From: Bradyrhizobium sp. Ash2021
Lineage (GTDB): Bacteria; Pseudomonadota; Alphaproteobacteria; Rhizobiales; Xanthobacteraceae
Length of the DNA: 64,000 nucleotides
Direction: 5' to 3'
Assembly (NCBI RefSeq): GCF_031202265.1
Contig: NZ_CP100604.1
Location: forward strand, 1,780,501 to 1,844,500
Part shown: positions 44,270 through 64,000 of the stretch, piece after piece
Layout of the letters: every line of letters begins with the position of its first letter
How positions within the stretch are numbered: position 1 is the stretch's first letter
Program-made: the position numbers and the translations under genes
Notes under the pieces: model-generated
What the model was told of the DNA's origin: nothing
What the model saw: only the letters and a program-made list of their open reading frames with translations
Databases searched by the model: none

Positions 44270-44436
44270 CGGGCAATGAGAAGCTGTGCGAGGCGCTGCG
44301 GGGCCCCTATTCAGGCGTCATGAGCGCGTATGATTTTTCGGCGGCTGATCTCAACGGCATCAAGCTGTCCGATTTCATCTTTTCAAAGCTGGTGGCGGGT
44401 CAATTCACACGTCTTCCGTTCAAGGCGAAAGAGTAG
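44270..44436 (+). pseudogene. 3' tail of an ABC substrate-binding protein gene
   Basis: The last 55 codons (NEKLCEALRGPYSGVMSAYD, LSDFIFSKLVAGQFTRLPFK) of the binding-protein gene found complete at 58504-59643, with no base difference that I found. The rest of that gene is replaced by the hydrolase remnant. It marks the left edge of the large duplication. Confidence 0.9.
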
Positions 44437-44486
44437 GCGTAGTTTCGCAAGGACATGTTGGCTTCGGCGCAATCCGGGGAAATGAA

Positions 44487-45374
44487 ATGAATGTTGGCCT
44501 CGTTGCGCAATCGCTATTAGCAGGCATCACCAATGGCCTGGTCTACGCCTTGATCGGGATAGGAATTGCTGCCATCTTCAAAGGCAGTCGCGTGGCAAAC
44601 GCGATGCAGGGTGAATTCAGCGTCGTCGGCGCAATCGTCGTTGTGCTGTTGATGACAGGACATCAATGGCCCTACTGGCTGGCTATCGTTGCCGGATGCT
44701 TAAGCGGCGTTGTGATTGGCGCCCTGATTGAGATCACGTTTATCCGACACCTGATGCGCAACAATGCGCCGGAAGACAGCTATCTGCAATTGACAATCGG
44801 CATCAGCCTGACGATCGCCGCCTCGGTTCTGTTCTTTTTCGGTCGAGAGAGCCATCTTCTGCCGGGTTTTGGCAGCGGCAAGGTTTACATCGTCATGGAT
44901 GCCGTCGTGCAGGAACACGCGATCTGGCTGATTGTGATCAGCGCGTTGCTGACATTGGGCCTGAGACAGTTTTACAGCCGCACCTCGATTGGCCTCAAGA
45001 TGATGGCGGCGTCGATCGATGCGGATGGTGCCGCGAGCATCGGCATCAACGTCGCGCTGATGCGCACACTCACTTTCATGCTTGGTGGACTGCTGGGCGC
45101 TATCGCCGGCATCCTGATCACGCCGATCATCCCGGTCGACTACATGGTCGGCCTGCAATTGACGCTCAAGGGATTTGCGGCTGCGATCCTGGGCGGTCTC
45201 ACTAACCCGCTCGGAGCGGCACTTGGTGGTCTCATGCTGGGGGTTGTCGAAGCCCTGGTAATCATGGGCGTTTCGTCCAGCTATAAAGACGTGATCACTT
45301 TCAGCCTGCTCATCCTCATCATGATCGTAATGCCGAACGGGCTTTTGGGCCGTGCCGGAAGGGCAGGGGGGTGA
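44487..45374 (+). CDS. Branched-chain-type ABC permease (LivH-like), copy 1
   Basis: 295 residues, polytopic, LivH family: LLAGITNGLVYALIGIGIAA at the start, AASIDADGAASIGINV (cytoplasmic coupling region) and FAAAILGGLTNPLGAALGG near the end. With the LivM-like partner it forms the membrane channel of a HAAT importer. The family name refers to branched-chain amino acids, but many members import aromatic or other carboxylates; the neighbouring catabolic genes favour the latter. Confidence 0.9.
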   Translation: MNVGLVAQSLLAGITNGLVYALIGIGIAAIFKGSRVANAMQGEFSVVGAIVVVLLMTGHQWPYWLAIVAGCLSGVVIGALIEITFIRHLMRNNAPEDSYLQLTIGISLTIAASVLFFFGRESHLLPGFGSGKVYIVMDAVVQEHAIWLIVISALLTLGLRQFYSRTSIGLKMMAASIDADGAASIGINVALMRTLTFMLGGLLGAIAGILITPIIPVDYMVGLQLTLKGFAAAILGGLTNPLGAALGGLMLGVVEALVIMGVSSSYKDVITFSLLILIMIVMPNGLLGRAGRAGG

Positions 45375-45380
45375 CCAGTC

Positions 45381-46325
45381 ATGTCGCGCGCGCTTCTTCT
45401 TACGGCGGTTATTGCACTGAGCCTGGCATTGCCCCCATTCTTACCTCGCCATCTTGTCGACCTGCTGGTTTTCACCGGCATTTACTCCATCGCCGGACTG
45501 GGCGTCGGGCTCCTGCTCGGCCAATGCGGGATCGTTAACCTGGGGCAGACCGTTTTCTATGGCATTGGCGCCTATTCGACTGCGTACGTCACGGTACAGG
45601 TTGGTGGCTCGCCTCTCGGCGGCTGCGCAATCGCCATCGTGCTATCGGCTCTGCTGGCGCTGGCGGTCGGATGGCCGATCTTGCGCCTGACCGGTTACTT
45701 CCTCGCGTTGGCGACCTTGGCTCTCGGTATCATTGCAAATGCGCTGTTTTACGAATGGAGCTGGTTGACAGGGGGGACGCTCGGTATCGGGGGCGTCCCG
45801 AAGTTGCAACTCTTCAGCTTCGTTCTCGATACGCCGCTGCGCTTCTACTATCTCGTGGTGACGGTGATGTCGCTCTGCCTGCTTCTCGCGCATAATCTGA
45901 CCCGCAGCAGGAATGGCTTGATGCTGCGGGCGATGCGGGACGCACCCGAAGCCGCCACCAGCCTGGCGATCGACCTGCAATGGTTGCGCACACGGATATT
46001 CATCCTGAGCGCAGTGATGGGGAGCGTCGCAGGTAGCCTGTTCGCCCATTATGGTGGGTACGTCAGCGTACAGAGCTTCGGTATCGATACGTCGATCAGC
46101 TTTCTCTTGATCCCGGTTCTCGGCGGAGCCACCTCGTTGCCAGGAGTGGTGGTTGGAGCTTTGTTCATCACGTTGCTGCCGGAACTGCTCAGCCGCTTCG
46201 GGAATGTACATCAAATCCTGTTCGGGCTCGCTTTGGTCGGCGTGGTCGTACTGATGCCAACCGGCTTGATGGGCGCTCTGGCTTGGCTTTGGCAACGTGT
46301 CAGCCAACGCGCGGCCAAACCATGA
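45381..46325 (+). CDS. Branched-chain-type ABC permease (LivM-like), copy 1
   Basis: 314 residues. GLGVGLLLGQCGIVNLGQTV is the LivM signature, followed by FYGIGAYSTAYVTV and a late VLGGATSLPGVVVGALFITL. It starts 6 bp after the LivH-like gene, and its stop overlaps the ATPase start. It is the second half of the permease dimer. Confidence 0.9.
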   Translation: MSRALLLTAVIALSLALPPFLPRHLVDLLVFTGIYSIAGLGVGLLLGQCGIVNLGQTVFYGIGAYSTAYVTVQVGGSPLGGCAIAIVLSALLALAVGWPILRLTGYFLALATLALGIIANALFYEWSWLTGGTLGIGGVPKLQLFSFVLDTPLRFYYLVVTVMSLCLLLAHNLTRSRNGLMLRAMRDAPEAATSLAIDLQWLRTRIFILSAVMGSVAGSLFAHYGGYVSVQSFGIDTSISFLLIPVLGGATSLPGVVVGALFITLLPELLSRFGNVHQILFGLALVGVVVLMPTGLMGALAWLWQRVSQRAAKP

Positions 46326-47086
46326 GCGACATGGCGGATCTCCTTGCGCTCGATCGGTTGGGCCACAGCTTCGGTGGCTTCGCGGTCCTCAGGAGCGTCA
46401 CGTTCTCAGTTCCGGTGGGCGATATTGTCGGGCTGATCGGCCCTAACGGATCAGGCAAGACGACACTTTTTAACATCGTCAGCGGATACATCGCTCACCG
46501 CCATGGCAGTGTGCTCTATGGCAAGCGCGACTTGTCGGGAACCTCGATCCAGGAACGCTCTAAAGCCGGCATGGTACGAACCTTCCAGACACCGAAGGTG
46601 TTCGAACAGATGACCGTGATTGAGAACATCATGGTGGGAGCCTGCAAGATCACCCGCAGCGGCATGATCGAAGATTTGCTCCGGCTGCCGCGGTCAAGGA
46701 GCGACCTGCGCCACCTTCGCGAACGGGCTGAGGAGATATGCGTCAAATTCGACCTCGCCGACGTGCGCAATCAATTGTCGCGCACCCTGCCGGCCGGACA
46801 GCGGCGCATTCTCGAAATTGCCAGGGCTGTCATCGGCCAACCTAAGCTCCTCATGCTGGACGAACCCTCGTCCGGGCTGAATGCGGACGAGATCGCCAAT
46901 CTTCGGCGCTGGATTGAGCTACTCAACGCCGAAGGGACCAGCATCCTGCTTGTGTCGCACGATATGGAACTGATGGGGGTCGCGGATCGGGTTCATGTCC
47001 TGTACTTCGGCGAGATCATCGCCAGCGGTGACATGGGGGAAATTCAGCGCAACGCGAAAGTCCGCGAAGTCTATTTGGGAACCTAA
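46322..47086 (+). CDS. ABC transporter ATPase (LivG-like), copy 1
   Basis: 254 residues from the methionine of MSDMADLL (ATGA overlap with the permease). Walker A GPNGSGKTTL, LivG-type Q-loop region MVRTFQTPKVFEQMTVIENI, a modified signature LPAGQRRILEIARAV instead of LSGGQ, Walker B LLMLDEPSSGLN, and the H-loop SHDMELM are visible. The LPAGQ signature is common in LivG proteins. It powers import together with the LivF-like subunit. Confidence 0.9.
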   Translation: MSDMADLLALDRLGHSFGGFAVLRSVTFSVPVGDIVGLIGPNGSGKTTLFNIVSGYIAHRHGSVLYGKRDLSGTSIQERSKAGMVRTFQTPKVFEQMTVIENIMVGACKITRSGMIEDLLRLPRSRSDLRHLRERAEEICVKFDLADVRNQLSRTLPAGQRRILEIARAVIGQPKLLMLDEPSSGLNADEIANLRRWIELLNAEGTSILLVSHDMELMGVADRVHVLYFGEIIASGDMGEIQRNAKVREVYLGT

Positions 47087-47089
47087 GGC

Positions 47090-47806
47090 ATGCTGGTTGT
47101 TGAGGGACTCACCGCAGGATATGGTCCGCTGGTCATACTGCGCGATATCTCCCTCAAGATGCTAAAGGGCGAGGCGGTTGCCATTGTCGGTGCCAATGGT
47201 GCCGGAAAGACCACGCTGGTCCGCGCGCTTTGCGGGCTGAATAGGGCACACGGGGGCCGCATCGTCAAAAATGGCATCGATATCACCGGCTTCCCGGCTC
47301 ACGCCAGACCACGGCACGGGATGGCCGCGTTATTGGAAAACCGTCGCTTATTCGGCGAGTTCACCGTTCGTGACAATCTGCGCTTGGCCGAGGAGGCCGG
47401 ACGGAAGCATCGCGGGCGCGATCTTCGTTTCACGTGGGATGACATATGCGATCTGTTTCCCATGATCGGCGAACGCGAGCGTACCCGCGTCGAATTGCTG
47501 AGCGGCGGTCAACAGCAGATGGTGGCGATCGCCCGCGGCCTCCTGCTCCAGCCGGATTTACTAGTACTTGACGAACCATCGACCGGTTTGGCGCCCAAGG
47601 TGGTGAAGGAGATCTTGCAGGTGCTGCACAATCTGCGTGCGCGGGGCATGGGAATTCTTCTCATCGAACAAAACGTCGGGATCGCGATCGAAATCACAGA
47701 TCGCGCCTATGTCATGTCGTTGGGCCGTATCATCCACGCCGTGGACGGAAATGAATGGCGCGGCTTCATGTCCGATGAGCGGCTCGCAAAGGCTTTCTTA
47801 GGCTAG
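47090..47806 (+). CDS. ABC transporter ATPase (LivF-like), copy 1
   Basis: 238 residues. Walker A GANGAGKTTL, ENRRLFGEFTVRDNLRLAEE, signature LLSGGQQQMVAIARGL, Walker B LLVLDEPSTGLAPK, and LLIEQNVGIAIEITDRAYVM are typical LivF. It follows the LivG-like gene by 3 bp. It ends the transport operon; the AT-rich gap that follows carries putative operators before the hydroxylase. Confidence 0.9.
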   Translation: MLVVEGLTAGYGPLVILRDISLKMLKGEAVAIVGANGAGKTTLVRALCGLNRAHGGRIVKNGIDITGFPAHARPRHGMAALLENRRLFGEFTVRDNLRLAEEAGRKHRGRDLRFTWDDICDLFPMIGERERTRVELLSGGQQQMVAIARGLLLQPDLLVLDEPSTGLAPKVVKEILQVLHNLRARGMGILLIEQNVGIAIEITDRAYVMSLGRIIHAVDGNEWRGFMSDERLAKAFLG

Positions 47807-47850
47807 AAAAATCGATTTAATATCTAGTTCATCCATACAATCGATTATTT
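47807..47850. promoter_or_regulatory. AT-rich intergenic region with repeated AATCGATT core
   Basis: AAAATCGATTTAA and CAATCGATTATTT lie 29 bp apart just upstream of the hydroxylase gene. An AAAAATCGATTTG element also occurs at about 58240 in the promoter region of the binding-protein gene, next to the GntR gene. It may be the operator of that GntR regulator; unproven. Confidence 0.35.
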
Positions 47851-47942
47851 AGTTGACTGATTCGCGCTCGTGTGGTGAATTGGGATCAGAAGTCTATCAG
47901 CGGGAGCCTCCTCCGGCTGCCCAACGCGGAAGCGGCGTTCGC

Positions 47943-50282
47943 ATGGAAAAATACGGTATCGGACAACCAACTCGACGCTTCGAAGATTCGCGCCTGCTGC
48001 GCGGACGCGGCCGGTTCCAGGATGATCGCAATCTACCAGGTCAAGCTTACGCAGTGGTGCTCCGATCGCCGCATGCGCATGCCCGTATCCTTGAGCTCGA
48101 TACCGCCGCGGCCAAAGCGGCGCCGGGTGTGCTCGCGGTCTATGGCGGGGCGGATTACGCGGCGGACGGACTTGGAATGCCAAAGGCGACGATCCCGCGT
48201 AAACGGCCCGATGGCTCGCCGATGTTCGCGCCGCAGCGTCCCGCTCTGGTGGTTGATCGTGTCCGTTATGTCGGCGATCCGGTTGCCCTGATTGTCGCTG
48301 AGACCCTGGCGCAAGCGAAGGATGCTGCAGAGCTCATCGGCGTAGATTATGAACCGCTGCCGGCTGTCACCTCAACGGCAGAGGCCGACCAGCCTGGCGC
48401 CGCGCGGGTCTGGGACAAGTGTCCAGACAACATTTCCAACATCTCCGAGAAAGGCAACAAGGACGCGGCCTCGGCAGCCTTCGCGCGGGCGGCGCATGTA
48501 ATTAAGAGACGCTATGTCATCACGCGGGTGCATGCGCAGTATATGGAAACCCGTGGCGCGCTGGGCGCTTATGATGCGGGGGATGAACGCTACACCCTCT
48601 ATACCGACTGCCAGTATCCGCATCGAGTCCGCAACATGCTGGCGAGTGCAGTCTTCCGTGTGCCGGAAAGCAGGATTCGCGTCGTTAGCGGTGATGTCGG
48701 CGGCGGGTTCGGCAGCAAGGGGTGGCAATATGTCGAACATCGCCTGGTGTTGTGGGCAGCCAAGAAACTTGGCCGGCCCGTCAAATGGACTTGCGATCGC
48801 TCCGAGGCCGTTCTCGCCGATGAACACGGCCGCGACAGCGTGGGTGAAATCGAGCTCGCGCTCGACGAGGCTTATCGCTTCGTGGGCTTGCGGCTGAAGC
48901 TCGTCGGAAATATCGGCGCGTACGTTGCGTCCGACCGCAGTCTGCTGGTGCCCTCGATGATGATCGGGACCGTGACGGGCGTCTACGACATTCCAGCCGC
49001 ATACGTCGCGGTCATCGGCGTTCTGACCAACACAAGCAATACGGCGCCTTACCGCGGTGCCGGCCGGCCGGAGGCGATCTACCTGATTGAGCGCCTGATC
49101 GACGACGCGGCGCGCGAGCTGAAGATCGATCGCCTCGAATTGCGGCGTCTCAATATTATCCCAACGGCCGCTATGCCGTATCAGAACCCGCTGGGGTGCT
49201 ACTACGATTGTGGCGACTTTCCAGGAAACCTCGATCTCGCGCTCGAAGTGGGTGACTACGCCAACTTCGAATGCCGTCGTCGAGTGTCGCTGGAGCGCGG
49301 CCTCTTGCGCGGCATTGGTGTAGCAAACGCGATTGAGCAAGCCGCGACCCCGACCCAATCGGAGTTTGCGGAGATCCGCTTCGACACGAGCGGTAGCGCG
49401 CAATTGCTGATGGGCACCAAGAATCAAGGGCAGGGACACGAGACGACCTTTAAACAGATACTGCATGAGCGTTTGGGGCTGGACCCACGCGACGTCCATT
49501 TTGTCGACGGCGACACCGATCAGGTGGCCTTTGGAATGGGCACCAACGGCTCGCGCTCCACAGTGGTGGGCGGTTCAGCAATACATTTCGCCGCGGAGAA
49601 AATCGTCGAAAAGGGCAAGCGTATCGCCGCACACTTGATGGAGTCCGATGCGAAGGATCTGGAGTTTTCCGACGGTAGATTCTTCGTGACGGGGACCGAT
49701 CGCTCGATGACGTTGAAGGACGTCGCGGTCGCCTCATACTTGCCCCTGAAGCTGCCGCCTGGTTTTGATGGCGGGCTGTATGAATCGGCAACCTATGCGC
49801 CGGCCAAAGATACGTTCCCGAATGGCTGCCATATCAGCGAAGTCGAGATCGATCCGGAAACCGGCGAAGTCAAATTGCTCAACTACGTGATCGTCGACGA
49901 TGTTGGAACTGTGATCAATCCGATGACCCTGAAGGGGCAGATACACGGAGGCATTGCCCAAGGCGTCGGTCAGATTCTCATGGAACGTGTCGTCTACGAT
50001 AAAGAGTCCGGTCAGCTTCTGACCGCGAGCTTCATGGACTACGCGATGCCGCGGGCCGATCTGTTCAGTCACATCACGGTGAAAAGCAATCCCGTTCCGA
50101 CCAGCCTGAACCCCCTTGGTGCAAAGGGCGCCGGCGAGGCCGGCTGCGTCGGCTCACTCCCGGCAGTGATGAACGCCATCATGCATGCGCTTGAAGCCGC
50201 GGGCGTGCTGCGGTTCGACATGCCGGCGACCAGCGATCGCGTGTGGCATGCCATCCGCTCCGCATCGGAGGCAGCGGCATGA
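47943..50282 (+). CDS. Molybdenum hydroxylase large subunit (xanthine dehydrogenase/CoxL family)
   Basis: 779 residues from the methionine of MEKYGIGQPTRRFEDSRLLR; the TTG-started extension at 47853 lacks similarity. GDVGGGFGSKGWQYVEHRLV and NTAPYRGAGRPEAIYLIERL are molybdopterin-binding motifs, TKNQGQGHETTFKQ is another, and the catalytic Glu sits in LGAKGAGEAGCVGSLPA. The active-site loop lacks the AYRCSFR of true CO dehydrogenase, so it is a hydroxylase acting on an aldehyde, purine or N-heterocycle. The usual FAD and [2Fe-2S] subunit genes are not adjacent. Its first third is duplicated at 63150. Confidence 0.88.
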   Translation: MEKYGIGQPTRRFEDSRLLRGRGRFQDDRNLPGQAYAVVLRSPHAHARILELDTAAAKAAPGVLAVYGGADYAADGLGMPKATIPRKRPDGSPMFAPQRPALVVDRVRYVGDPVALIVAETLAQAKDAAELIGVDYEPLPAVTSTAEADQPGAARVWDKCPDNISNISEKGNKDAASAAFARAAHVIKRRYVITRVHAQYMETRGALGAYDAGDERYTLYTDCQYPHRVRNMLASAVFRVPESRIRVVSGDVGGGFGSKGWQYVEHRLVLWAAKKLGRPVKWTCDRSEAVLADEHGRDSVGEIELALDEAYRFVGLRLKLVGNIGAYVASDRSLLVPSMMIGTVTGVYDIPAAYVAVIGVLTNTSNTAPYRGAGRPEAIYLIERLIDDAARELKIDRLELRRLNIIPTAAMPYQNPLGCYYDCGDFPGNLDLALEVGDYANFECRRRVSLERGLLRGIGVANAIEQAATPTQSEFAEIRFDTSGSAQLLMGTKNQGQGHETTFKQILHERLGLDPRDVHFVDGDTDQVAFGMGTNGSRSTVVGGSAIHFAAEKIVEKGKRIAAHLMESDAKDLEFSDGRFFVTGTDRSMTLKDVAVASYLPLKLPPGFDGGLYESATYAPAKDTFPNGCHISEVEIDPETGEVKLLNYVIVDDVGTVINPMTLKGQIHGGIAQGVGQILMERVVYDKESGQLLTASFMDYAMPRADLFSHITVKSNPVPTSLNPLGAKGAGEAGCVGSLPAVMNAIMHALEAAGVLRFDMPATSDRVWHAIRSASEAAA

Positions 50283-51157
50283 ACGTTCTCGAAGGCAACC
50301 GCATCGAACGGCGGCGGGTGCTGCATGGTGGCAGCCCCCAATGGGCCGTTCCGGCTTCGGACGGCTTACGGCTCGACGACGGCCGTGTGGTTGCGCTGAA
50401 CGAGGTGAAGCATCTGCCGCCGTGTCGGCCGACCAAAATCCTGTGCGTGCACACCAACTACATGTCGCGGTATTTCGAGGTGCTCGGCAAGACCGACGGG
50501 CTGCAGGCACCCACCTTCTTTCAGAAGCCGCTTTCGGCGATCAACAATCATGATGGTGAGATCGGCCTTCCCGACGGTTACAAATTCCTCAATTATGAAG
50601 GGGAGCTGGCCGCGATTGTCGGTCGACCGATGCGCAACGTCGCGCCGGAGCAGGTGTGGGACTGCCTTGCCGGTTTCACGGTCGCAAACGACGTCAGCCT
50701 GCACGATATGCGTGATGCCGATATGGGAGGCATGGTCCGCGTCAAGGGCGCCGATGGATTCTGCCCGCTCGGTCCGGGCATTGTCCGGGGTCTGGATGTT
50801 CGCCAGTCCACACTGCGCACCTACCTCAACGGTGGTCTGGTGCAGGAGTCTCCGATCGCCGAGATGATCTTCGGCATCGATTACCTGATTGCCGATTTGG
50901 CGCGGCATATCACACTTGAAGCCGGCGACGTGATTCTGACCGGAACTCCGGCCAACTCGCGTCCAATGACCGCTGGGGACGTCGTCGAGGTGGAGATCAC
51001 CGGAGTCGGCCGGTTGCGCAACACCGTCCAGCCCGTGCCCGCGCCCAGGATGCAAATCGGTCATCAGCCGCAAGACAATCCCGCAATCCGCAGCGTTGCG
51101 CTTGGCAACGACGAGCGTCTGCCAGCACAGCTCCGCCGCGGCGCGCTCACACGGTAG
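50279..51157 (+). CDS. Fumarylacetoacetate-hydrolase-family enzyme
   Basis: 292 residues from the ATG that overlaps the hydroxylase stop. The FAH fold is shown by TKILCVHTNYMSRYFEVLGK, FFQKPLSAINNHDGEI, the metal motif FLNYEGELAAIVGRPMRNV (Glu ligands), VANDVSLHDMRDADMGG (Asp ligand) and GDVILTGTPANSRPMTAGDV. Relatives cleave C-C bonds in acylpyruvates or isomerise/decarboxylate hydroxymuconate-type acids in aromatic ring degradation. Translational coupling to the hydroxylase suggests that hydroxylation of a ring is followed by cleavage of a ring-opened diketo acid. Confidence 0.87.
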   Translation: MNVLEGNRIERRRVLHGGSPQWAVPASDGLRLDDGRVVALNEVKHLPPCRPTKILCVHTNYMSRYFEVLGKTDGLQAPTFFQKPLSAINNHDGEIGLPDGYKFLNYEGELAAIVGRPMRNVAPEQVWDCLAGFTVANDVSLHDMRDADMGGMVRVKGADGFCPLGPGIVRGLDVRQSTLRTYLNGGLVQESPIAEMIFGIDYLIADLARHITLEAGDVILTGTPANSRPMTAGDVVEVEITGVGRLRNTVQPVPAPRMQIGHQPQDNPAIRSVALGNDERLPAQLRRGALTR

Positions 51158-51166
51158 AGAAAAATC

Positions 51167-51388
51167 ATGGACCTCGGACTAAAAGACCAGTCGGCCATCG
51201 TTTGTGCATCCTCCCGGGGTCTTGGCGAAGCCTGCGCCACGGCGTTGTCGCGTGAAGGCGTGCGCGTCTACATCAATGGCCGCAACCAAGCGACGTTGGA
51301 GGAAGCCGCGGCGCGGATCGAAACTGCGAGCGGTCGCCGGCCCCATGCGGTGGTCGCGGACATCTCCACAATCAGCGGTACGATCTAG
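51167..51388 (+). pseudogene. Short-chain dehydrogenase/reductase, 5' part only
   Basis: LKDQSAIVCASSRGLGEACA, then TALSREGVRVYINGRNQATL is the Rossmann N-terminus of an SDR (GxxxGxG variant ASSRGLG, NGR for cofactor choice). It stops after 73 residues at HAVVADISTISGTI, where about 175 more would be expected, including the Tyr-x-x-x-Lys site. It is the third gene of the hydroxylase-FAH operon, now lost by a deletion that brought the porin gene near. Confidence 0.8.
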
Positions 51389-51428
51389 AACTTTCACAAG
51401 GAAGCGGCCAATAGGGGGGTTAACTGCA

Positions 51429-52925: not shown

Positions 52926-52936
52926 TATATTAAACG

Positions 52937-52968
52937 AATATGGCGGGCGACAGCGCGCCCGCCATATT
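52937..52968 (+). terminator. Rho-independent-type hairpin after the porin gene
   Basis: A perfect 13-bp stem (AATATGGCGGGCG with its complement at 52956-52968) with a 6-base ACAGCG loop, 11 bp after the porin stop. The following tract (GCTTTATCTTCT) is only moderately T-rich. Confidence 0.75.
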
Positions 52969-53159
52969 GCTTTATCTTCTCTGTGGGAGCCGATCCAAGA
53001 ACTCGCTGAGTCGAATCAATCGGGGACGGCTCTATTGCGAGAGGCTCGATTCGAAAGAATTTTCGGTGTTAGAGCCTGAACTTCGGCGATATGCCGGCGC
53101 CGCGCGGCCTTCGTCTCTCAACTGATCTGACGGAGGAATGGGGACTATGCTTTCGCCGA

Positions 53160-53414
53160 TCAGTCCACCAGCTCAACGCTGCCACGCTTGATTGTTGCTT
53201 CGCGGCGCGCCAACTCCGCTGTCACGATGCCGAATTGCCCAATCATGACCCGGCGCGTCCGGCCATGACGTCGGTATTGCACCAGAAAGAATCGCTTACC
53301 GCTCGGCATGACGCGCACATCGAATCCCGGAAGATCGGTATCGAAGGCGATGAAGTCTTTCGGTGCGGCCTTGAGAGCCTCGACTGTCCGTTTGGTGATC
53401 CTAATTTTTGCCAT
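53160..53414 (-). pseudogene. Phage-type tyrosine integrase, N-terminal arm domain only
   Basis: MAKIRITKRTVEALKAAPKD, then FDTDLPGFDVRVMPSGKRFF and LVQYRRHGRTRRVMIGQFGI is the arm-binding DUF4102 domain of P4-type integrases. It ends after 84 residues (ELARREATIKRGSVELVD) without the core-binding and catalytic domains. It lies 220 bp from a tRNA-fMet attachment-like sequence, so it is probably the stub of an older integrated element. The 190 bp between the porin terminator and this stub contain no gene. Confidence 0.82.
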
Positions 53415-55132: not shown

Positions 55133-55151
55133 GAAACGATCTCCTGCAAGG

Positions 55152-55391
55152 TCAGGAGCGTTTCGGGCGGCGCTCCTCGGCGATTTGTTCGTACCATTCC
55201 CGCGCTGCGCGGCGAGCCAGCAGGCGCACGAATTCGATGAGGCGCGGATCGGGGCCGCTGCCGCCCTGTGGCGCGAGCGTCAATTCCGGCTCGCTGTGCC
55301 GGGTGATGCTCTTGCTTTTCTGACGAACAGCTTCTTCCATCGTAATGCCGCTCATGGCCGGGTGCACGATCGCAACTAGCATTAGTGCCAT
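55152..55391 (-). CDS. Small hypothetical protein upstream of the recombinase
   Basis: About 79 residues (ITMEEAVRQKSKSITRHSEP, RLIEFVRLLARRAAREWYEQ), 19 bp before the recombinase start and on the same strand. Basic helical C-terminus. Small ORFs at this position accompany serine recombinases in many alphaproteobacterial elements; no function is known. The start is uncertain (55406, 55391 or 55382). Confidence 0.55.
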   Translation of the reverse strand: MALMLVAIVHPAMSGITMEEAVRQKSKSITRHSEPELTLAPQGGSGPDPRLIEFVRLLARRAAREWYEQIAEERRPKRS

Positions 55392-55531
55392 GCCACGCGC
55401 GAGCAATCGGAATCAGCGGTGAATATTCGGATAGAGCCGATGAGTCCCGGCGAACGATGTCCAAGGCTGGCGTAGCGTATCGCAGACCGGCGTCGCACAT
55501 TAACTTGCGCATTTCGGTACTTGATCCTCGT

Positions 55532-56644: not shown

Positions 56645-56659
56645 CCATTTTCATCCGAT
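56596..56659 (-). repeat. Direct repeats over the Fic gene start
   Basis: Two 18-bp units, ATCGGATGAAAATGGATG and ATCGGATGGAAATGGATG on the coding strand, 46 bp apart and differing at one base. Both contain in-frame or near-frame ATGs. They could be operator sites for the Fic protein's own HTH, or a duplicated translation-start region. Confidence 0.5.
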
Positions 56660-56968
56660 ATCGGCCGCTGTGTCGCTCAAGAAAGAACGAAGTGGGAACC
56701 TTTGACTCGGAAGCTTAAGCTTCTCCACGGGCGGCTCCTCTGTTTGAGATCTTCGACGACCTCATTCTGGCACAGCTGATGCCGTAGGGGGCCGTCCACC
56801 CCAACACGAGAGCCCGGTGCGGCGTTTGCCGCACGCGCCATTGACGCTCGCAACACCTGCATCTCCAGCTGCTCCAGTTGCCGGACGAAACGCAAGTAGT
56901 GGGGCACGGCCAAATCCCAATCGACGACCTGTTGCGTGTATGTTGGGGCTTATATACCGGGACCCCGC

Positions 56969-57166
56969 TTAACTGCTTTTCCGCTTCAGCGGTCCAGGAA
57001 GGAATGCATCAATCTCGGAATCCGTAAACGTTAGGTCTTCTCTATTCTGGAGAGCATCCTGTGCCTGGCCATAAGCCTTACCATCGGTATGCGGCGCGGA
57101 CCGATAAATTGAGTGCAAGAGATTTTGCAGCTCGTCCCGCCTTTCCCGAAGCTCCGGTATCCCAGC
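56969..57166 (-). pseudogene. Conserved hypothetical protein, 3' part
   Basis: An open frame of 66 codons without a good start: AGIPELRERRDELQNLLHSI, YRSAPHTDGKAYGQAQDALQ, NREDLTFTDSEIDAFLPGPL, KRKSS. It reads as genuine protein and ends properly. I recall similar short proteins on rhizobial mobile elements but cannot name the family. A stop codon directly precedes AGIP, so the 5' end is probably lost. The region 56660-56968 shows only a weak 78-codon minus-strand frame that I do not trust. Confidence 0.45.
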
Positions 57167-57247
57167 TTATCGAAGGCGAGCGAGAACCATCATAGGAGTG
57201 CCATGCGAGGGAGGCAAAACAGCTGAAATGGCACACCCCAGCCATTT

Positions 57248-58030
57248 TCAGGCAGGCTTGGAAACCGATGTCCCGCCAGCTTTTGAAGATCTCGTCCGGA
57301 TCTTTGCGGCTTTGGTCAGCTTTGCTTGTGCAGCGTTGAGTCGTCGAACTTCAATTCGTCCGTACTCAAGTGTTACCGTAAAGTGCTCCTTTAGGAGTCG
57401 CACCGCTACATCTACATTCCGCTGCAGCGTAGCTTCCATGATCAGTCGATGGTCGTCCCGCCGCAGCGGGCTGCCCTGATAATGTTTCCGGGACAAAAAC
57501 CTGTAGCGGTCCGCGGCGTCAAACAGCTGCTCGCAGAAATCGATTAGCCACTTGGAACCGCAAGCGTCTATCAGCGCGGTGTGAAACGCGCGGTGTGCTT
57601 GTTCCCAGGCGGGATCAATCGGGCCGCTGTCGCGCTCGGCTGGACCGGGCAGGCGCGACATACGATGGAACGCGATAAGAACACGCTCTTCCCAGGCCTG
57701 ATCGCCGTTGGCGATCGATGCTCGCAAAGCGGCCTCGTTGCTCCAGCAGCGGGTCTTGTTGATGTCTTCGAGATCCTCTTCCGAGAGCGGTGCGACCGTA
57801 AACCCACGCTGATCATTTTGCTGAACCAGGCCGTCTCGTGAAACGCGGTTCAATGCTTCGCGAACGGGACTAAGGCCGATCTCGTAGCGCGAGCACAATT
57901 CGCGAATGAGCAGCTTCGTGCCCGGTTCGTAAATGCCACTGATGATGTCGAAGCGTAACCGCTCGTAAGCCGATGAGGCCAGCGTTTCGCCACCTTTGCT
58001 TTTTGTTTTGTGTTTTTTGGTCTTCAGCAT
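57248..58030 (-). CDS. GntR-family regulator (FCD type)
   Basis: 260 residues. A Lys-rich N-terminus (MLKTKKHKTKSKGG) precedes the winged HTH (SAYERLRFDIISGIYEPGTK, REALNRVSRDGLVQQND). The FCD effector domain has ligands typical of FadR/VanR-type metal-binding FCD proteins (EEDLEDINKTRCWSNEAALR, HRAFHTALIDACGS, DDHRLIMEATLQRNVDVAVR). It is divergent to the binding-protein gene at 58504, so it is the likely repressor of the importer and hydroxylase genes, relieved by an organic acid substrate. Confidence 0.88.
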   Translation of the reverse strand: MLKTKKHKTKSKGGETLASSAYERLRFDIISGIYEPGTKLLIRELCSRYEIGLSPVREALNRVSRDGLVQQNDQRGFTVAPLSEEDLEDINKTRCWSNEAALRASIANGDQAWEERVLIAFHRMSRLPGPAERDSGPIDPAWEQAHRAFHTALIDACGSKWLIDFCEQLFDAADRYRFLSRKHYQGSPLRRDDHRLIMEATLQRNVDVAVRLLKEHFTVTLEYGRIEVRRLNAAQAKLTKAAKIRTRSSKAGGTSVSKPA

Positions 58031-58503
58031 TGCAGTTGCTGTCCAACGATCCTCGATCGCCGTGATCCAAAATCGAACGAGGCAAATTGTAAGAAGAAAA
58101 TCGACGCGTTCCGGCTACCCCCAAGACCTCGTATCCTGCTTGAACCTTGCCGGTCCGCTCCCAACTACGGCGCTTACTGCCATACCGCATGCGACTTCAT
58201 TTCACCACCCGTTTCTTCATTCTTGGCTGAAAACATGAAAAAATCGATTTGTTCTTTACTTAGTCGAATTTATGTGTTTTTCAGTATATGGGAGCCGCCG
58301 TTGAATAATGCGGTCTCCCATTGGGAGGGCATTGCCGGACGGGTTCGCTGCGTCGCGATGATTGGATGCGAGGTCAACATCCCGCTTGGCAGCCGTTTCA
58401 ATACGCAAACTGCCCCGCCCGTCGCGAAGCGGATTCATCCTTGTATCGGCTTCAATCGGAATGCCGTGCCCGGAGATGGGCAGAGAGGCTTAAGGTCAAC
58501 ACG
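58031..58503. promoter_or_regulatory. Divergent promoter region, gntR versus importer operon
   Basis: 473 bp without a convincing gene. The AT-rich part (about 58230-58300) contains AAAAATCGATTTGTTC and TTTATGTGTTTTTCAG, suitable for promoter and operator. The AATCGATT core also occurs twice at 47807-47850. A long open frame that continues upstream of the binding-protein start is probably not translated. Confidence 0.5.
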
Positions 58504-59643
58504 ATGTCGAAACTCTTTCGAAAATTGATCGCTCTCCCCATTGCGATGTGGTCGGCGCTCATCTTGGACCCGGCAAGCGCGCAAAAAGTCTCCGGCGACC
58601 CGATCAAGATCGGCGTTATCCTGCCCCTTACCGGCGCCGGAGCCTCGTTAGGCATAAATCAACGCAACGGTGCGGTATTGGCCGAGAAGGCCATCAACGG
58701 CTCGGGCGGATTCAAAGGCCGGCCGATCAAGCTGATCGTGGAAGACGACGCCACAAATCCTGATACTGCCAGCAGCAAAGCGAATGGCCTGATCTACGGA
58801 GAAAAGGTCATCGCCATCATAGGACCGGGACAAGCAGCCAATACCCTGGCGGTAGGCGGCGTCACGAGTGCTATCAAGATGCCGCAGGTTGCATTGTCCG
58901 GACTTGGGCCCGCGGCGGAGCTGGAGCGGAAATGCGTGTTCCATGTCTCTCCGCCCCTGTCCCTGAACGCCCGCGCCATGCTGGACTATGCTCGATCGCT
59001 CGGGATCAAACGAGCCGGAGTGCTGTACGACTCCGGCTACGGTAGCGTGGTGTATACCGAACTTCGCAAATATGCCGAGAGCTACGGAATCGAACTCGTG
59101 GCCACCGAGAAATTCGAAATCTCGGCAACCGACACCACGACGCAAGCGGCCAAGATCCGCGCCAGCAGCCCGGCGGGGATCTTCGTCATAGGCATCACCG
59201 GTGTCCCGATCCGCAGCATCCGCCAGCTGCAAGTCAAGCTTCCGATCATTGCCGCTGCCGGCCAGGCAAACTACGAAATCGCGAAGAGCATGGGGGACGC
59301 TGCAGATAATGTTGCGTTCCCCGAATTCCTGGTGGGCGAGGACCCATTGCCGAACCAAAAAGAGTTCGTCGCGCTGTACCAAGCGCAATACAACAAATTG
59401 CCGAAGATCAGCGAGGCGATGGGTTGGGATGCCGTTCACATACTCCTCGCGGCGTTCGACAAGGTCGGGCCAGATGCGGGCAATGAGAAGCTGTGCGAGG
59501 CGCTGCGGGGCCCCTATTCAGGCGTCATGAGCGCGTATGATTTTTCGGCGGCTGATCTCAACGGCATCAAGCTGTCCGATTTCATCTTTTCAAAGCTGGT
59601 GGCGGGTCAATTCACACGTCTTCCGTTCAAGGCGAAAGAGTAG
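58504..59643 (+). CDS. ABC importer periplasmic substrate-binding protein (Peripla_BP_6)
   Basis: 379 residues. Signal peptide LIALPIAMWSALILDPASAQ, then the LivJ-type fold: IKIGVILPLTGAGASLGINQ, GRPIKLIVEDDATNPDTASS, VIAIIGPGQAANTLAVGGVT, and a hinge near GWDAVHILLAAFD. Binding proteins of this class bring branched-chain amino acids, aromatic acids or amides to the LivHMGF-type complex encoded 50 bp downstream. It is the only complete copy in the window; the other importer cluster retains just its last 55 codons. Confidence 0.9.
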   Translation: MSKLFRKLIALPIAMWSALILDPASAQKVSGDPIKIGVILPLTGAGASLGINQRNGAVLAEKAINGSGGFKGRPIKLIVEDDATNPDTASSKANGLIYGEKVIAIIGPGQAANTLAVGGVTSAIKMPQVALSGLGPAAELERKCVFHVSPPLSLNARAMLDYARSLGIKRAGVLYDSGYGSVVYTELRKYAESYGIELVATEKFEISATDTTTQAAKIRASSPAGIFVIGITGVPIRSIRQLQVKLPIIAAAGQANYEIAKSMGDAADNVAFPEFLVGEDPLPNQKEFVALYQAQYNKLPKISEAMGWDAVHILLAAFDKVGPDAGNEKLCEALRGPYSGVMSAYDFSAADLNGIKLSDFIFSKLVAGQFTRLPFKAKE

Positions 59644-59693
59644 GCGTAGTTTCGCAAGGACATGTTGGCTTCGGCGCAATCCGGGGAAATGAA

Positions 59694-60581
59694 ATGAATG
59701 TTGGCCTCGTTGCGCAATCGCTATTAGCAGGCATCACCAATGGCCTGGTCTACGCCTTGATCGGGATAGGAATTGCTGCCATCTTCAAAGGCAGTCGCGT
59801 GGCAAACGCGATGCAGGGTGAATTCAGCGTCGTCGGCGCAATCGTCGTTGTGCTGTTGATGACAGGACATCAATGGCCCTACTGGCTGGCTATCGTTGCC
59901 GGATGCTTAAGCGGCGTTGTGATTGGCGCCCTGATTGAGATCACGTTTATCCGACACCTGATGCGCAACAATGCGCCGGAAGACAGCTATCTGCAATTGA
60001 CAATCGGCATCAGCCTGACGATCGCCGCCTCGGTTCTGTTCTTTTTCGGTCGAGAGAGCCATCTTCTGCCGGGTTTTGGCAGCGGCAAGGTTTACATCGT
60101 CATGGATGCCGTCGTGCAGGAACACGCGATCTGGCTGATTGTGATCAGCGCGTTGCTGACATTGGGCCTGAGACAGTTTTACAGCCGCACCTCGATTGGC
60201 CTCAAGATGATGGCGGCGTCGATCGATGCGGATGGTGCCGCGAGCATCGGCATCAACGTCGCGCTGATGCGCACACTCACTTTCATGCTTGGTGGACTGC
60301 TGGGCGCTATCGCCGGCATCCTGATCACGCCGATCATCCCGGTCGACTACATGGTCGGCCTGCAATTGACGCTCAAGGGATTTGCGGCTGCGATCCTGGG
60401 CGGTCTCACTAACCCGCTCGGAGCGGCACTTGGTGGTCTCATGCTGGGGGTTGTCGAAGCCCTGGTAATCATGGGCGTTTCGTCCAGCTATAAAGACGTG
60501 ATCACTTTCAGCCTGCTCATCCTCATCATGATCGTAATGCCGAACGGGCTTTTGGGCCGTGCCGGAAGGGCAGGGGGGTGA
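59694..60581 (+). CDS. Branched-chain-type ABC permease (LivH-like), copy 2
   Basis: The translation is identical to the permease at 44487 over all 295 residues. Here it follows an intact binding-protein gene by 50 bp, so this cluster can form a complete importer under the divergent GntR regulator. Confidence 0.9.
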   Translation: MNVGLVAQSLLAGITNGLVYALIGIGIAAIFKGSRVANAMQGEFSVVGAIVVVLLMTGHQWPYWLAIVAGCLSGVVIGALIEITFIRHLMRNNAPEDSYLQLTIGISLTIAASVLFFFGRESHLLPGFGSGKVYIVMDAVVQEHAIWLIVISALLTLGLRQFYSRTSIGLKMMAASIDADGAASIGINVALMRTLTFMLGGLLGAIAGILITPIIPVDYMVGLQLTLKGFAAAILGGLTNPLGAALGGLMLGVVEALVIMGVSSSYKDVITFSLLILIMIVMPNGLLGRAGRAGG

Positions 60582-60587
60582 CCAGTC

Positions 60588-61532
60588 ATGTCGCGCGCGC
60601 TTCTTCTTACGGCGGTTATTGCACTGAGCCTGGCATTGCCCCCATTCTTACCTCGCCATCTTGTCGACCTGCTGGTTTTCACCGGCATTTACTCCATCGC
60701 CGGACTGGGCGTCGGGCTCCTGCTCGGCCAATGCGGGATCGTTAACCTGGGGCAGACCGTTTTCTATGGCATTGGCGCCTATTCGACTGCGTACGTCACG
60801 GTACAGGTTGGTGGCTCGCCTCTCGGCGGCTGCGCAATCGCCATCGTGCTATCGGCTCTGCTGGCGCTGGCGGTCGGATGGCCGATCTTGCGCCTGACCG
60901 GTTACTTCCTCGCGTTGGCGACCTTGGCTCTCGGTATCATTGCAAATGCGCTGTTTTACGAATGGAGCTGGTTGACAGGGGGGACGCTCGGTATCGGGGG
61001 CGTCCCGAAGTTGCAACTCTTCAGCTTCGTTCTCGATACGCCGCTGCGCTTCTACTATCTCGTGGTGACGGTGATGTCGCTCTGCCTGCTTCTCGCGCAT
61101 AATCTGACCCGCAGCAGGAATGGCTTGATGCTGCGGGCGATGCGGGACGCACCCGAAGCCGCCACCAGCCTGGCGATCGACCTGCAATGGTTGCGCACAC
61201 GGATATTCATCCTGAGCGCAGTGATGGGGAGCGTCGCAGGTAGCCTGTTCGCCCATTATGGTGGGTACGTCAGCGTACAGAGCTTCGGTATCGATACGTC
61301 GATCAGCTTTCTCTTGATCCCGGTTCTCGGCGGAGCCACCTCGTTGCCAGGAGTGGTGGTTGGAGCTTTGTTCATCACGTTGCTGCCGGAACTGCTCAGC
61401 CGCTTCGGGAATGTACATCAAATCCTGTTCGGGCTCGCTTTGGTCGGCGTGGTCGTACTGATGCCAACCGGCTTGATGGGCGCTCTGGCTTGGCTTTGGC
61501 AACGTGTCAGCCAACGCGCGGCCAAACCATGA
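60588..61532 (+). CDS. Branched-chain-type ABC permease (LivM-like), copy 2
   Basis: The 314-residue translation is identical to the copy at 45381. Same 6-bp spacing from the LivH-like gene and the same overlap with the ATPase gene. Confidence 0.9.
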   Translation: MSRALLLTAVIALSLALPPFLPRHLVDLLVFTGIYSIAGLGVGLLLGQCGIVNLGQTVFYGIGAYSTAYVTVQVGGSPLGGCAIAIVLSALLALAVGWPILRLTGYFLALATLALGIIANALFYEWSWLTGGTLGIGGVPKLQLFSFVLDTPLRFYYLVVTVMSLCLLLAHNLTRSRNGLMLRAMRDAPEAATSLAIDLQWLRTRIFILSAVMGSVAGSLFAHYGGYVSVQSFGIDTSISFLLIPVLGGATSLPGVVVGALFITLLPELLSRFGNVHQILFGLALVGVVVLMPTGLMGALAWLWQRVSQRAAKP

Positions 61533-62293
61533 GCGACATGGCGGATCTCCTTGCGCTCGATCGGTTGGGCCACAGCTTCGGTGGCTTCGCGGTCCTCAGG
61601 AGCGTCACGTTCTCAGTTCCGGTGGGCGATATTGTCGGGCTGATCGGCCCTAACGGATCAGGCAAGACGACACTTTTTAACATCGTCAGCGGATACATCG
61701 CTCACCGCCATGGCAGTGTGCTCTATGGCAAGCGCGACTTGTCGGGAACCTCGATCCAGGAACGCTCTAAAGCCGGCATGGTACGAACCTTCCAGACACC
61801 GAAGGTGTTCGAACAGATGACCGTGATTGAGAACATCATGGTGGGAGCCTGCAAGATCACCCGCAGCGGCATGATCGAAGATTTGCTCCGGCTGCCGCGG
61901 TCAAGGAGCGACCTGCGCCACCTTCGCGAACGGGCTGAGGAGATATGCGTCAAATTCGACCTCGCCGACGTGCGCAATCAATTGTCGCGCACCCTGCCGG
62001 CCGGACAGCGGCGCATTCTCGAAATTGCCAGGGCTGTCATCGGCCAACCTAAGCTCCTCATGCTGGACGAACCCTCGTCCGGGCTGAATGCGGACGAGAT
62101 CGCCAATCTTCGGCGCTGGATTGAGCTACTCAACGCCGAAGGGACCAGCATCCTGCTTGTGTCGCACGATATGGAACTGATGGGGGTCGCGGATCGGGTT
62201 CATGTCCTGTACTTCGGCGAGATCATCGCCAGCGGTGACATGGGGGAAATTCAGCGCAACGCGAAAGTCCGCGAAGTCTATTTGGGAACCTAA
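61529..62293 (+). CDS. ABC transporter ATPase (LivG-like), copy 2
   Basis: 254 residues, identical to the copy at 46322, with Walker A GPNGSGKTTL and the LPAGQ signature variant. ATGA overlap with the permease stop. Confidence 0.9.
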   Translation: MSDMADLLALDRLGHSFGGFAVLRSVTFSVPVGDIVGLIGPNGSGKTTLFNIVSGYIAHRHGSVLYGKRDLSGTSIQERSKAGMVRTFQTPKVFEQMTVIENIMVGACKITRSGMIEDLLRLPRSRSDLRHLRERAEEICVKFDLADVRNQLSRTLPAGQRRILEIARAVIGQPKLLMLDEPSSGLNADEIANLRRWIELLNAEGTSILLVSHDMELMGVADRVHVLYFGEIIASGDMGEIQRNAKVREVYLGT

Positions 62294-62296
62294 GGC

Positions 62297-63013
62297 ATGC
62301 TGGTTGTTGAGGGACTCACCGCAGGATATGGTCCGCTGGTCATACTGCGCGATATCTCCCTCAAGATGCTAAAGGGCGAGGCGGTTGCCATTGTCGGTGC
62401 CAATGGTGCCGGAAAGACCACGCTGGTCCGCGCGCTTTGCGGGCTGAATAGGGCACACGGGGGCCGCATCGTCAAAAATGGCATCGATATCACCGGCTTC
62501 CCGGCTCACGCCAGACCACGGCACGGGATGGCCGCGTTATTGGAAAACCGTCGCTTATTCGGCGAGTTCACCGTTCGTGACAATCTGCGCTTGGCCGAGG
62601 AGGCCGGACGGAAGCATCGCGGGCGCGATCTTCGTTTCACGTGGGATGACATATGCGATCTGTTTCCCATGATCGGCGAACGCGAGCGTACCCGCGTCGA
62701 ATTGCTGAGCGGCGGTCAACAGCAGATGGTGGCGATCGCCCGCGGCCTCCTGCTCCAGCCGGATTTACTAGTACTTGACGAACCATCGACCGGTTTGGCG
62801 CCCAAGGTGGTGAAGGAGATCTTGCAGGTGCTGCACAATCTGCGTGCGCGGGGCATGGGAATTCTTCTCATCGAACAAAACGTCGGGATCGCGATCGAAA
62901 TCACAGATCGCGCCTATGTCATGTCGTTGGGCCGTATCATCCACGCCGTGGACGGAAATGAATGGCGCGGCTTCATGTCCGATGAGCGGCTCGCAAAGGC
63001 TTTCTTAGGCTAG
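62297..63013 (+). CDS. ABC transporter ATPase (LivF-like), copy 2
   Basis: 238 residues, identical to the copy at 47090. Walker A GANGAGKTTL, LSGGQQQ signature. The AT-rich gap with two AATCGATT cores follows at 63014-63057, as in copy 1. Confidence 0.9.
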   Translation: MLVVEGLTAGYGPLVILRDISLKMLKGEAVAIVGANGAGKTTLVRALCGLNRAHGGRIVKNGIDITGFPAHARPRHGMAALLENRRLFGEFTVRDNLRLAEEAGRKHRGRDLRFTWDDICDLFPMIGERERTRVELLSGGQQQMVAIARGLLLQPDLLVLDEPSTGLAPKVVKEILQVLHNLRARGMGILLIEQNVGIAIEITDRAYVMSLGRIIHAVDGNEWRGFMSDERLAKAFLG

Positions 63014-63149
63014 AAAAATCGATTTAATATCTAGTTCATCCATACAATCGATTATTTAGTTGACTGATTCGCGCTCGTGTGGTGAATTGGGATCAGAAGT
63101 CTATCAGCGGGAGCCTCCTCCGGCTGCCCAACGCGGAAGCGGCGTTCGC

Positions 63150-64000
63150 ATGGAAAAATACGGTATCGGACAACCAACTCGACGCTTCGAAGATTCGCGC
63201 CTGCTGCGCGGACGCGGCCGGTTCCAGGATGATCGCAATCTACCAGGTCAAGCTTACGCAGTGGTGCTCCGATCGCCGCATGCGCATGCCCGTATCCTTG
63301 AGCTCGATACCGCCGCGGCCAAAGCGGCGCCGGGTGTGCTCGCGGTCTATGGCGGGGCGGATTACGCGGCGGACGGACTTGGAATGCCAAAGGCGACGAT
63401 CCCGCGTAAACGGCCCGATGGCTCGCCGATGTTCGCGCCGCAGCGTCCCGCTCTGGTGGTTGATCGTGTCCGTTATGTCGGCGATCCGGTTGCCCTGATT
63501 GTCGCTGAGACCCTGGCGCAAGCGAAGGATGCTGCAGAGCTCATCGGCGTAGATTATGAACCGCTGCCGGCTGTCACCTCAACGGCAGAGGCCGACCAGC
63601 CTGGCGCCGCGCGGGTCTGGGACAAGTGTCCAGACAACATTTCCAACATCTCCGAGAAAGGCAACAAGGACGCGGCCTCGGCAGCCTTCGCGCGGGCGGC
63701 GCATGTAATTAAGAGACGCTATGTCATCACGCGGGTGCATGCGCAGTATATGGAAACCCGTGGCGCGCTGGGCGCTTATGATGCGGGGGATGAACGCTAC
63801 ACCCTCTATACCGACTGCCAGTATCCGCATCGAGTCCGCAACATGCTGGCGAGTGCAGTCTTCCGTGTGCCGGAAAGCAGGATTCGCGTCGTTAGCGGTG
63901 ATGTCGGCGGCGGGTTCGGCAGCAAGGGGTGGCAATATGTCGAACATCGCCTGGTGTTGTGGGCAGCCAAGAAACTTGGCCGGCCCGTCAAATGGACTTG
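63150..64000 (+). CDS. Molybdenum hydroxylase large subunit, copy 2 (partial, window end)
   Basis: The first 283 codons of the gene seen complete at 47943, with no difference in the overlap, up to the GRPVKWT segment after GDVGGGFGSKG. It is cut by the window edge; whether the full gene and its FAH partner are also duplicated cannot be seen. Confidence 0.85.
   Translation, partial: MEKYGIGQPTRRFEDSRLLRGRGRFQDDRNLPGQAYAVVLRSPHAHARILELDTAAAKAAPGVLAVYGGADYAADGLGMPKATIPRKRPDGSPMFAPQRPALVVDRVRYVGDPVALIVAETLAQAKDAAELIGVDYEPLPAVTSTAEADQPGAARVWDKCPDNISNISEKGNKDAASAAFARAAHVIKRRYVITRVHAQYMETRGALGAYDAGDERYTLYTDCQYPHRVRNMLASAVFRVPESRIRVVSGDVGGGFGSKGWQYVEHRLVLWAAKKLGRPVKWT

Follow-up and report, generated by a model that had tools for sequence, protein, structure and literature searches.

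The locus described here, in the soil bacterium Bradyrhizobium sp. Ash2021, contains three copies of one uptake and breakdown operon, two of them damaged. Two of the copies match perfectly over 6.9 kb, apparently as a result of recent recombination, a commonplace process that has left exceptionally legible traces here rather than a new kind of element. It is best explained, with a probability of roughly 0.55, by old paralogous units that were homogenised by a crossover and then pruned by deletions. The window, i.e., the whole stretch of DNA analysed, is 64,000 nucleotides long; higher positions continue its numbering past the right end. Copy 1 and its left flank carry the following features.

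42941-43492, + strand: SnoaL-like gene, upstream of CocE; weak match to Pfam SnoaL_2 (23.9 bits, under the curated cut-off of 27)
43638-44278, + strand: CocE/NonD-type hydrolase remnant, a 5' portion with one single-base frameshift, cut by the presumed deletion; start approximate
44270-44278, no strand: CGGGCAATG, microhomology of up to 9 bp at the presumed deletion junction, present also in the copy 2 binding-protein gene and in the intact CocE gene of a relative of the same genus (G139)
44270-44436, + strand: 3' end of the binding-protein gene (final 55 codons), in a reading frame other than that of CocE
44487-47806, + strand: genes for two branched-chain-type permeases and two ABC ATPases, all open and without differences from copy 2
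47853-50282, + strand: Mo-hydroxylase large subunit (CoxL-like), open frame, no difference from copy 2
50243-51157, + strand: FAA-hydrolase family protein, open frame, no difference from copy 2
51167-51369, + strand: truncated SDR gene, with 11 differences from copy 2 in its tail (51205-51369)

Base-level comparison within the contig showed that 44270-51204 (copy 1) and 59477-66411 (copy 2) are identical over 6,935 bp, with 0 mismatches and a constant offset of 15,207. The preliminary description had reported the recurrence of 44270-48793 at 59477-64000, mismatch-free at this offset, and the alignment bore it out through the window end; the repeat, given there as 4.5 kb or longer, is real and longer than stated, comprising 6,935 bp plus a 165-bp diverged tail. 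It contains the four transporter genes already recognised (two permeases and two ATPases), the FAA-hydrolase gene, the 5' part of the SDR gene and the hydroxylase large-subunit gene, which is included entirely and not in part as had been thought, copy 2 being cut solely by the window end. Beyond 51204/66411, 11 mismatches occur in 165 bp, up to 51369/66576, after which homology is absent. The confinement of all 11 differences to the final 165 of 7,100 bp has a probability of ~1e-18 under uniform scatter (Fisher 7.7e-19). The left edge is sharp, with 149 of the 200 preceding bases mismatched. The rest of the window and the continuation of copy 2 were annotated as follows.

51432-52925, + strand: porin gene after copy 1 (Pfam Porin_4); start approximate
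53160-53543, - strand: tyrosine integrase fragment (Arm-DNA-bind_3 only)
53635-53679, + strand: exact copy, over 45 bp, of the tRNA-Met 3' end, between copies 1 and 2; the tRNA-Met gene lies 277 kb upstream
53636-55132, - strand: serine recombinase (domain match)
55532-56644, - strand: Fic-domain protein (domain match)
57248-58030, - strand: GntR/FCD regulator of copy 2
58501-59643, + strand: intact periplasmic binding protein gene of copy 2; start approximate
59477-64000, + strand: copy 2 repeat, continuing past the window, identical to 66411 and diverged to 66576
Beyond 66576: rest of the intact SDR gene of copy 2, 2Fe-2S subunit, FAD subunit, second FAA hydrolase, CoxG

The spacer 51370-57246 is present in full only once in the genome, so the whole repeat unit including the spacer is not present twice. 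A plasmid search with 44270-48793, possibly lacking this genome's own records, returned no matches. Neither tRNA genes nor Rfam families at gathering score were detected within the window.

The right end of the repeat carries the sole surviving sample of the divergence between copies 1 and 2, 6.7% over 165 bp, with seven differences at codon position 3 and four at position 1. The copy 1 SDR gene is chimeric: through 51204 it is of copy 2 type, whereas 51205-51369 is of its own type. The edge of a conversion tract would look no different. Compared with three outgroup genomes (G139, G017, and G136), the copy 1 tail has the majority outgroup base at 6 of the 11 differing sites, matching all three at 51280, 51287, 51298, and 51358 and two of three at 51290 and 51361, and copy 2 has the outgroup base at 3 of 11 (51205, 51208, and 51214). 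Since copy 1 retains these outgroup-like bases, an older diverged unit was probably present at its site beforehand, and the tail points to a trace of that unit. The preliminary description had listed a very recent event among the possible meanings of the identity; for the exchange that made the copies identical this stands, but a very recent duplication is too simple, because the diverged tail indicates a unit already there. The shortness of the tail, just 165 bp, was counted against the best explanation.

At the left junction, the CocE remnant (43668-44268) was 79% identical in DNA to the intact G139 gene. Differences numbered 97, 30, and 19 at codon positions 3, 1, and 2, respectively, with one single-base gap; 214 aligned codons contained 0 stops, and one TGA, at 43862, lies in the shifted frame exactly at the frameshift. 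This pattern, with no stop and a single gap, fits a fairly recent truncation. Fine dating of the remnant is impossible, which was also counted against the best explanation. In G139, an intact CocE gene stands directly upstream of GntR and this operon, so copy 1 would lie in an ancestral-looking left context with an internal loss, judging from this one genome. No CocE match was found at the G017 locus in the stretch fetched; the G136 contig begins inside the operon, in the second ATPase gene. The upstream position of CocE in G139 only was likewise counted against the best explanation. The junction proposed earlier, at which a CocE/NonD fragment meets the final 55 binding-protein codons, is present; its likeliest origin is the loss of an internal stretch (3.5 kb in G139 coordinates) between microhomologies of ≤9 bp. 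An in-frame hybrid protein was considered and rejected, the two reading frames being different.

Alignment placed the CGGGCAATG site in all 23 CocE homologues, 22 of them from the loci compared and one a paralogue within this genome (L160); a strict motif filter retained G139 only. The full 9-bp string occurred in 3 of 23, a scarcity counted against the best explanation, and CGGGCNATG stood at the site in 13 of 23 (counted by eye). CGGGCAATG was presumably also present in the CocE segment that this genome has lost. No sigma-70-like promoter was detected in 43400-44500, where 0.4 were expected by chance. Copy 1 has neither a regulator nor the FeS and FAD subunits, its SDR gene is incomplete, and most of the binding protein is missing; this weakens the earlier suggestion of selection for dosage, and copy 1 by itself is probably not a working unit. 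Among its transporter genes, only the first permease and the second ATPase had Pfam matches. Residues 10-773 of the 779 in the hydroxylase large subunit matched 8uem chain A (CoxL; E 8e-159), and the protein is assigned to the CoxL family by full-length similarity. On the basis of family membership, the importer and the hydroxylase probably take up and oxidise a small organic compound.

A third, partial and more diverged copy is located outside the window at 89809-94498, ~23 kb past the repeat, and is joined at CTGTAC. It is a mosaic: stretches of 398 and 1,398 bp show 0 differences from copies 1 and 2, and the remaining aligned bases show 145 in 897, 47 of them in an intergenic spacer. Copies 2 and 3 share identity tracts with sharp boundaries inside diverged paralogues, probably the result of gene conversion, whereas copies 1 and 2 show a right boundary only.

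The SnoaL-like gene is the only match of its kind in the genome. Its homologues in G139, G017, and G136 come after the FAD subunit gene of this operon; here it stands upstream of CocE and is a possible relic of a further upstream unit. No SnoaL was found in 22 CocE loci (L045-L066, ~1.5 kb flank each), a set without the locus of the window itself and without the seven CocE loci that matched most weakly, and a general pairing of SnoaL with CocE was rejected (0/22). A sensitive search of the interval between bioA and SnoaL against the other operon loci for a FAD-gene match gave no alignment.

The partner of the 45-bp repeat lies in tRNA-Met at G000:C1:1557208-1557252, and a 35-base part of it occurs at only these two places in the genome with ≤3 mismatches allowed. 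A direct repeat of a tRNA 3' end beside a recombinase, as present here, is a feature of tRNA-integrated genomic islands, and judged from its sequence 53635-53679 is a probable att site. In a comparison aimed at an empty site that would show the extent of the island, the sequence after tRNA-Met here was matched in 0 of 17 relative loci (19 loci, 17 with a usable stretch), and serine-recombinase-related sequence directly follows tRNA-Met in 3 of these 17 (G238, G036, and G088). NodA was looked for in the genome as a possible sign of a symbiosis island and gave no match; the control was likewise matchless, so the search was uninformative.

The crossover explanation would begin with old units arranged head to tail, each with CocE, GntR, a branched-chain-type ABC importer, CoxL-like hydroxylase, FAA hydrolase, SDR, FeS, FAD, and SnoaL, copies 1 and 2 being previously diverged units. 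In a recent homologous exchange, one of these two copies, in either direction, would have taken on the sequence of the other through 51204. Unequal crossover between sister chromosomes would be the simplest form, yielding a 15.2-kb tandem repeat that ends in a chimeric SDR. A later deletion at the microhomology of ≤9 bp would have fused CocE of the first unit to a binding-protein gene and removed the surplus, including the second copy of the spacer. The order of steps, the exact bases lost and the choice of crossover over one very long conversion are our reconstruction. The three-unit array intermediate was unseen in the one strain, which was counted against the best explanation.

The same pair of old units could instead have been homogenised by one or several gene conversions, copy 1 being overwritten by copy 2 or copy 2 by copy 1, with the ~3.5 kb CocE-to-binding-protein deletion before or after. 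The conversion-like copy 2/copy 3 tracts, bounded by divergence on both sides at this very locus, speak for conversion, as do the smaller rearrangements needed; a later deletion of ~18.7 kb versus ~3.5 kb for conversion was counted against the crossover route. Yet 6.9 kb far exceeds the bacterial tract lengths in PMC8223754 and PMC5485169, a few hundred nucleotides, and with no diverged left tail the tract must reach the end of homology unless the deletion came later. According to PMC5485169, tuf conversion in mismatch-repair-deficient Salmonella walks ~500 nt each way on average. With these Salmonella values, a simple two-walk formula gives P ~1e-5 for a single conversion of 6,935 bp, 0.8 for 398 bp, and 0.2 for 1,398 bp; at a processivity of 0.999 instead of 0.998, P for 6,935 bp becomes 0.008, and the Salmonella tract lengths may not hold here. 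We consider conversion of copies 1 and 2 somewhat unlikely. A broader and still less likely picture would be a decaying array of four units (a SnoaL-only relic and copies 1-3), in which operon-scale recombination (tract of at least 6.9 kb) rewrote broken copies, perhaps aided by the island recombinase site.

Exact identity would also result if a repeat contig had been placed twice or diverged copies had been collapsed during assembly. Against such an artefact stand the two-contig, 9.70-Mb assembly, the copy-specific tail, the separate junction at either side, and the agreement of the left one with the G139 gene order; copies 6 to 7% apart should not normally collapse, and we regard the artefact as improbable. 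Secondary insertion of copy 1, or its origin as a simple duplicate of copy 2, into the hydrolase gene would account for complete identity over 6.9 kb and for broken genes at both edges. The hydrolase, however, neighbours the operon in G139, and the SDR tail at the right edge diverged independently; the idea of a grafted or secondarily inserted copy 1, raised in the preliminary description, is disfavoured on these points, and we give it very little credence. The other possibility raised there is supported: an array in which a deletion joined the hydrolase and binding-protein genes.

A duplicate without a single mismatch can thus be an old paralogue rewritten by recombination, and identity alone does not date a duplication; here the rewriting came to light only through the 165-bp diverged tail together with the gene arrangement in a relative. 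The locus may offer a natural test of how far bacterial homogenisation tracts extend.

Among CoxL-type hydroxylases, the large subunit is similar near full length to 8uem CoxL and to 1t3q quinoline 2-oxidoreductase. The operon has homologues in G139, G017, and G136 (gene order GntR-BP-P1-P2-ATP-ATP-MoL-FAH-SDR-FeS-FAD-SnoaL in G139 and G017) at 70-73% DNA identity over long pieces; there it is a single unit in the stretches fetched, with SnoaL after FAD and not upstream of CocE. In the classical duplication-amplification model, unequal crossover between tandem repeats is followed by a remodelling deletion at microhomology. The chimeric repeat end, the direct repeat and the presumed deletion joined at ≤9 bp resemble this model; here the array intermediate is unobserved, and the parents would be diverged paralogues, not fresh duplicates. 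Concerted evolution by gene conversion is described for the tuf genes of Salmonella and the nifH genes of Rhizobium in PMC8223754 and PMC5485169. Perfect-identity blocks inside diverged paralogues on the same chromosome are common to those systems and to copies 2 and 3 here, but the tracts given there measure several hundred nucleotides, whereas copies 1 and 2 are identical over a 6.9 kb operon segment.

To cover the whole repeat, neighbouring DNA of the same contig was added to the analysis because the window ends inside copy 2 (numbers above 64000 continue the window numbering). The two copies, beginning at 44270 (copy 1) and 59477 (copy 2), matched base for base with a constant offset of 15,207. 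The identical repeat of the preliminary description was borne out and proved longer: 44270–51204 matched 59477–66411 over 6,935 bp with 0 mismatches, giving a 95% upper bound on divergence of 4.3e-4 per site. The following 165 bp, up to 51369/66576, contained 11 mismatches, and beyond this point the homology of the copies ended. If differences were evenly spread, the chance of all 11 falling in the last 165 of 7,100 bp would be ~1e-18 (Fisher test, 7.7e-19).

Copy 2 is an operon whose GntR/FCD regulator is encoded on the other strand; these genes follow in order:

Importer and hydroxylase: periplasmic binding protein, two permeases, two ATPases, molybdenum-hydroxylase large subunit
Past the large subunit: FAA hydrolase, SDR, 2Fe-2S subunit, FAD subunit, second FAA hydrolase, CoxG

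Pfam was applied to 18 proteins, including the CocE/NonD-type hydrolase (CocE) of the related genome G139; the second permease and first ATPase, outside this set, were named from order and sequence. The nearest solved structures to the large subunit were CoxL of CO dehydrogenase and quinoline 2-oxidoreductase. In copy 1, the permease, ATPase, large-subunit, and FAA-hydrolase genes were open and identical to those of copy 2; at its edges, the binding-protein gene was reduced to its last 55 codons and the SDR gene to 67 codons. Loci L080–L101, from Reyranella and other proteobacterial records, showed the importer part by itself (binding protein, permeases, and ATPases, 48–70% identical), and the Mo-hydroxylase genes had no match in these stretches of 4.5–21 kb.

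The operon query had some match in all 265 genomes of the genus (the window's own included), since the gene families are common; at most two candidates were scored per genome. Long matches, 70–73% identical, were found in G139, G017, and G136, and G039 had a shorter match within the hydroxylase gene. The three genomes with long matches served as outgroups for the SDR tail. The copy 1 base was that of all three at 51280, 51287, 51298, and 51358, of two at 51290 and 51361 (copy 2 having the base of the remaining one at 51361), and of one at 51293. Copy 2 carried the outgroup base at 51205, 51208, and 51214, and neither copy did at 51365. On these bases the tail appears to be the end piece of a unit that was already in place and had diverged independently; the same pattern speaks against a decayed piece of copy 2.

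At the left edge, G139 offers a comparison: it carries CocE intact, as an ORF of 636 codons, directly upstream of the regulator and operon. The stretch fetched from G017 contained no CocE match, and the G136 contig starts inside the operon. The CocE remnant of copy 1 was 79% identical to the G139 gene. The junction string CGGGCAATG is present in the copy 2 binding-protein gene and at the corresponding place in the CocE of G139. Its full nine bases occurred in 3 of 23 CocE homologues and CGGGCNATG in 13 of 23 by a visual count; the microhomology is accordingly put at up to 9 bp, with an inferred lost partner. Given the CocE gene upstream of the operon in G139, the fusion is best read as an internal deletion of ~3.5 kb in G139 coordinates, a reading that rests on gene order and not on junction bases. 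A graft of copy 1 onto a hydrolase remnant, as previously proposed, is disfavoured by this neighbourhood in G139 and by the diverged SDR tail; fusion by deletion, offered earlier together with an amplified array, holds best among those alternatives.

Between the remnant and G139, differences at codon positions 3/1/2 numbered 97/30/19, a pattern resembling the first permease (167/57/21) and large subunit (445/106/75). The 214 codons of the remnant contain no stop, and its alignment shows one single-base gap; this fits a fairly recent truncation, without fine dating. A CocE-type paralogue without internal stops, 78% identical to the G139 protein, lies elsewhere in the genome (G000:C1:3907883–3909607).

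The SnoaL-like gene at 42941–43492 is single-copy in the genome. Here it precedes CocE, whereas in G139, G017, and G136 it comes after the FAD subunit, which suggests a possible relic of another unit upstream. Between copies 1 and 2, 53635–53679 exactly repeats 45 bp at the 3' end of a tRNA-Met gene that lies 277 kb upstream (G000:C1:1557208–1557252); a 35-base part occurred only at these two genome sites with up to 3 mismatches allowed. A serine recombinase adjoins the repeat, and recombinase-related sequence lay directly 3' of tRNA-Met in G238, G036, and G088 (3 of 17 usable loci; 19 relative loci fetched). The repeat is probably a genomic-island att site, and one end of the island probably lies between the copies.

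Other repeats were observed in and near the window:

25623–26880 and 32611–33868: 1,258-bp direct repeat, 99.5% identical, reading frames transposase-like by eye
27295–27627 and 31037–31370: pair alongside it, 88% identical, LysR-like by eye
13587–14689, 16676–17770, and 95549–96653 (extended): IS-like element of ~1.1 kb, 79–86% identical mutually
56716–56806: ~91 bp, with four other genome sites at 82–85% identity

A genome-wide DNA search with 44270–48793 revealed, among 18 matches, one further close relative (92% identical), which extended alignment placed at 89809–94498, ~23 kb past the repeat end. This third copy comprises a regulator, the binding-protein start, the end of the first ATPase gene, the second ATPase, and a truncated large subunit; CTGTAC marks the joint of the binding-protein start to the ATPase end.

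Differences between the third copy and copy 2 (copy 2 coordinates)
Regulator: 71/783
Regulator/binding-protein spacer: 121/466, many gaps
Binding-protein start: 64/511
End of first ATPase: 3/90
62321–62718: 0/398
Rest of second ATPase: 46/295
Intergenic spacer: 47/132
Start of large subunit: 36/294
63444–64841: 0/1,398
End of match: 8/59

The two difference-free tracts are common to all three copies, and the mosaic is the kind of footprint that gene conversion leaves.

Taken together, the two edges of copy 1 suggest an older pair of units. The earlier interpretation thus holds only in part: the diverged SDR tail points to older paralogues, and the recent event would be their homogenisation, not a duplication. 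We favour unequal crossover followed by deletion, as a single crossover step would account for both the long identity and the chimeric end. The main rival is that conversion made copies 1 and 2 identical. It is spared the later deletion of ~18.7 kb, larger than any it needs, that the crossover route would require. However, one conversion tract spanning 6.9 kb or more is improbable at a processivity of 0.998, where our two-walk formula gives P of ~1e-5; P is 0.008 at 0.999 and 3e-14 at 0.995.

The value of 0.998 was fitted for tuf in mismatch-repair-deficient Salmonella strains (PMC5485169). The same formula at 0.998 gives P of 0.8 for the 398-bp and 0.2 for the 1,398-bp third-copy tract (0.007 for the latter at 0.995), and both are compatible with conversion. 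Tracts in bacterial concerted evolution are described as several hundred nucleotides long (PMC8223754). The processes at this locus are all of known kinds.
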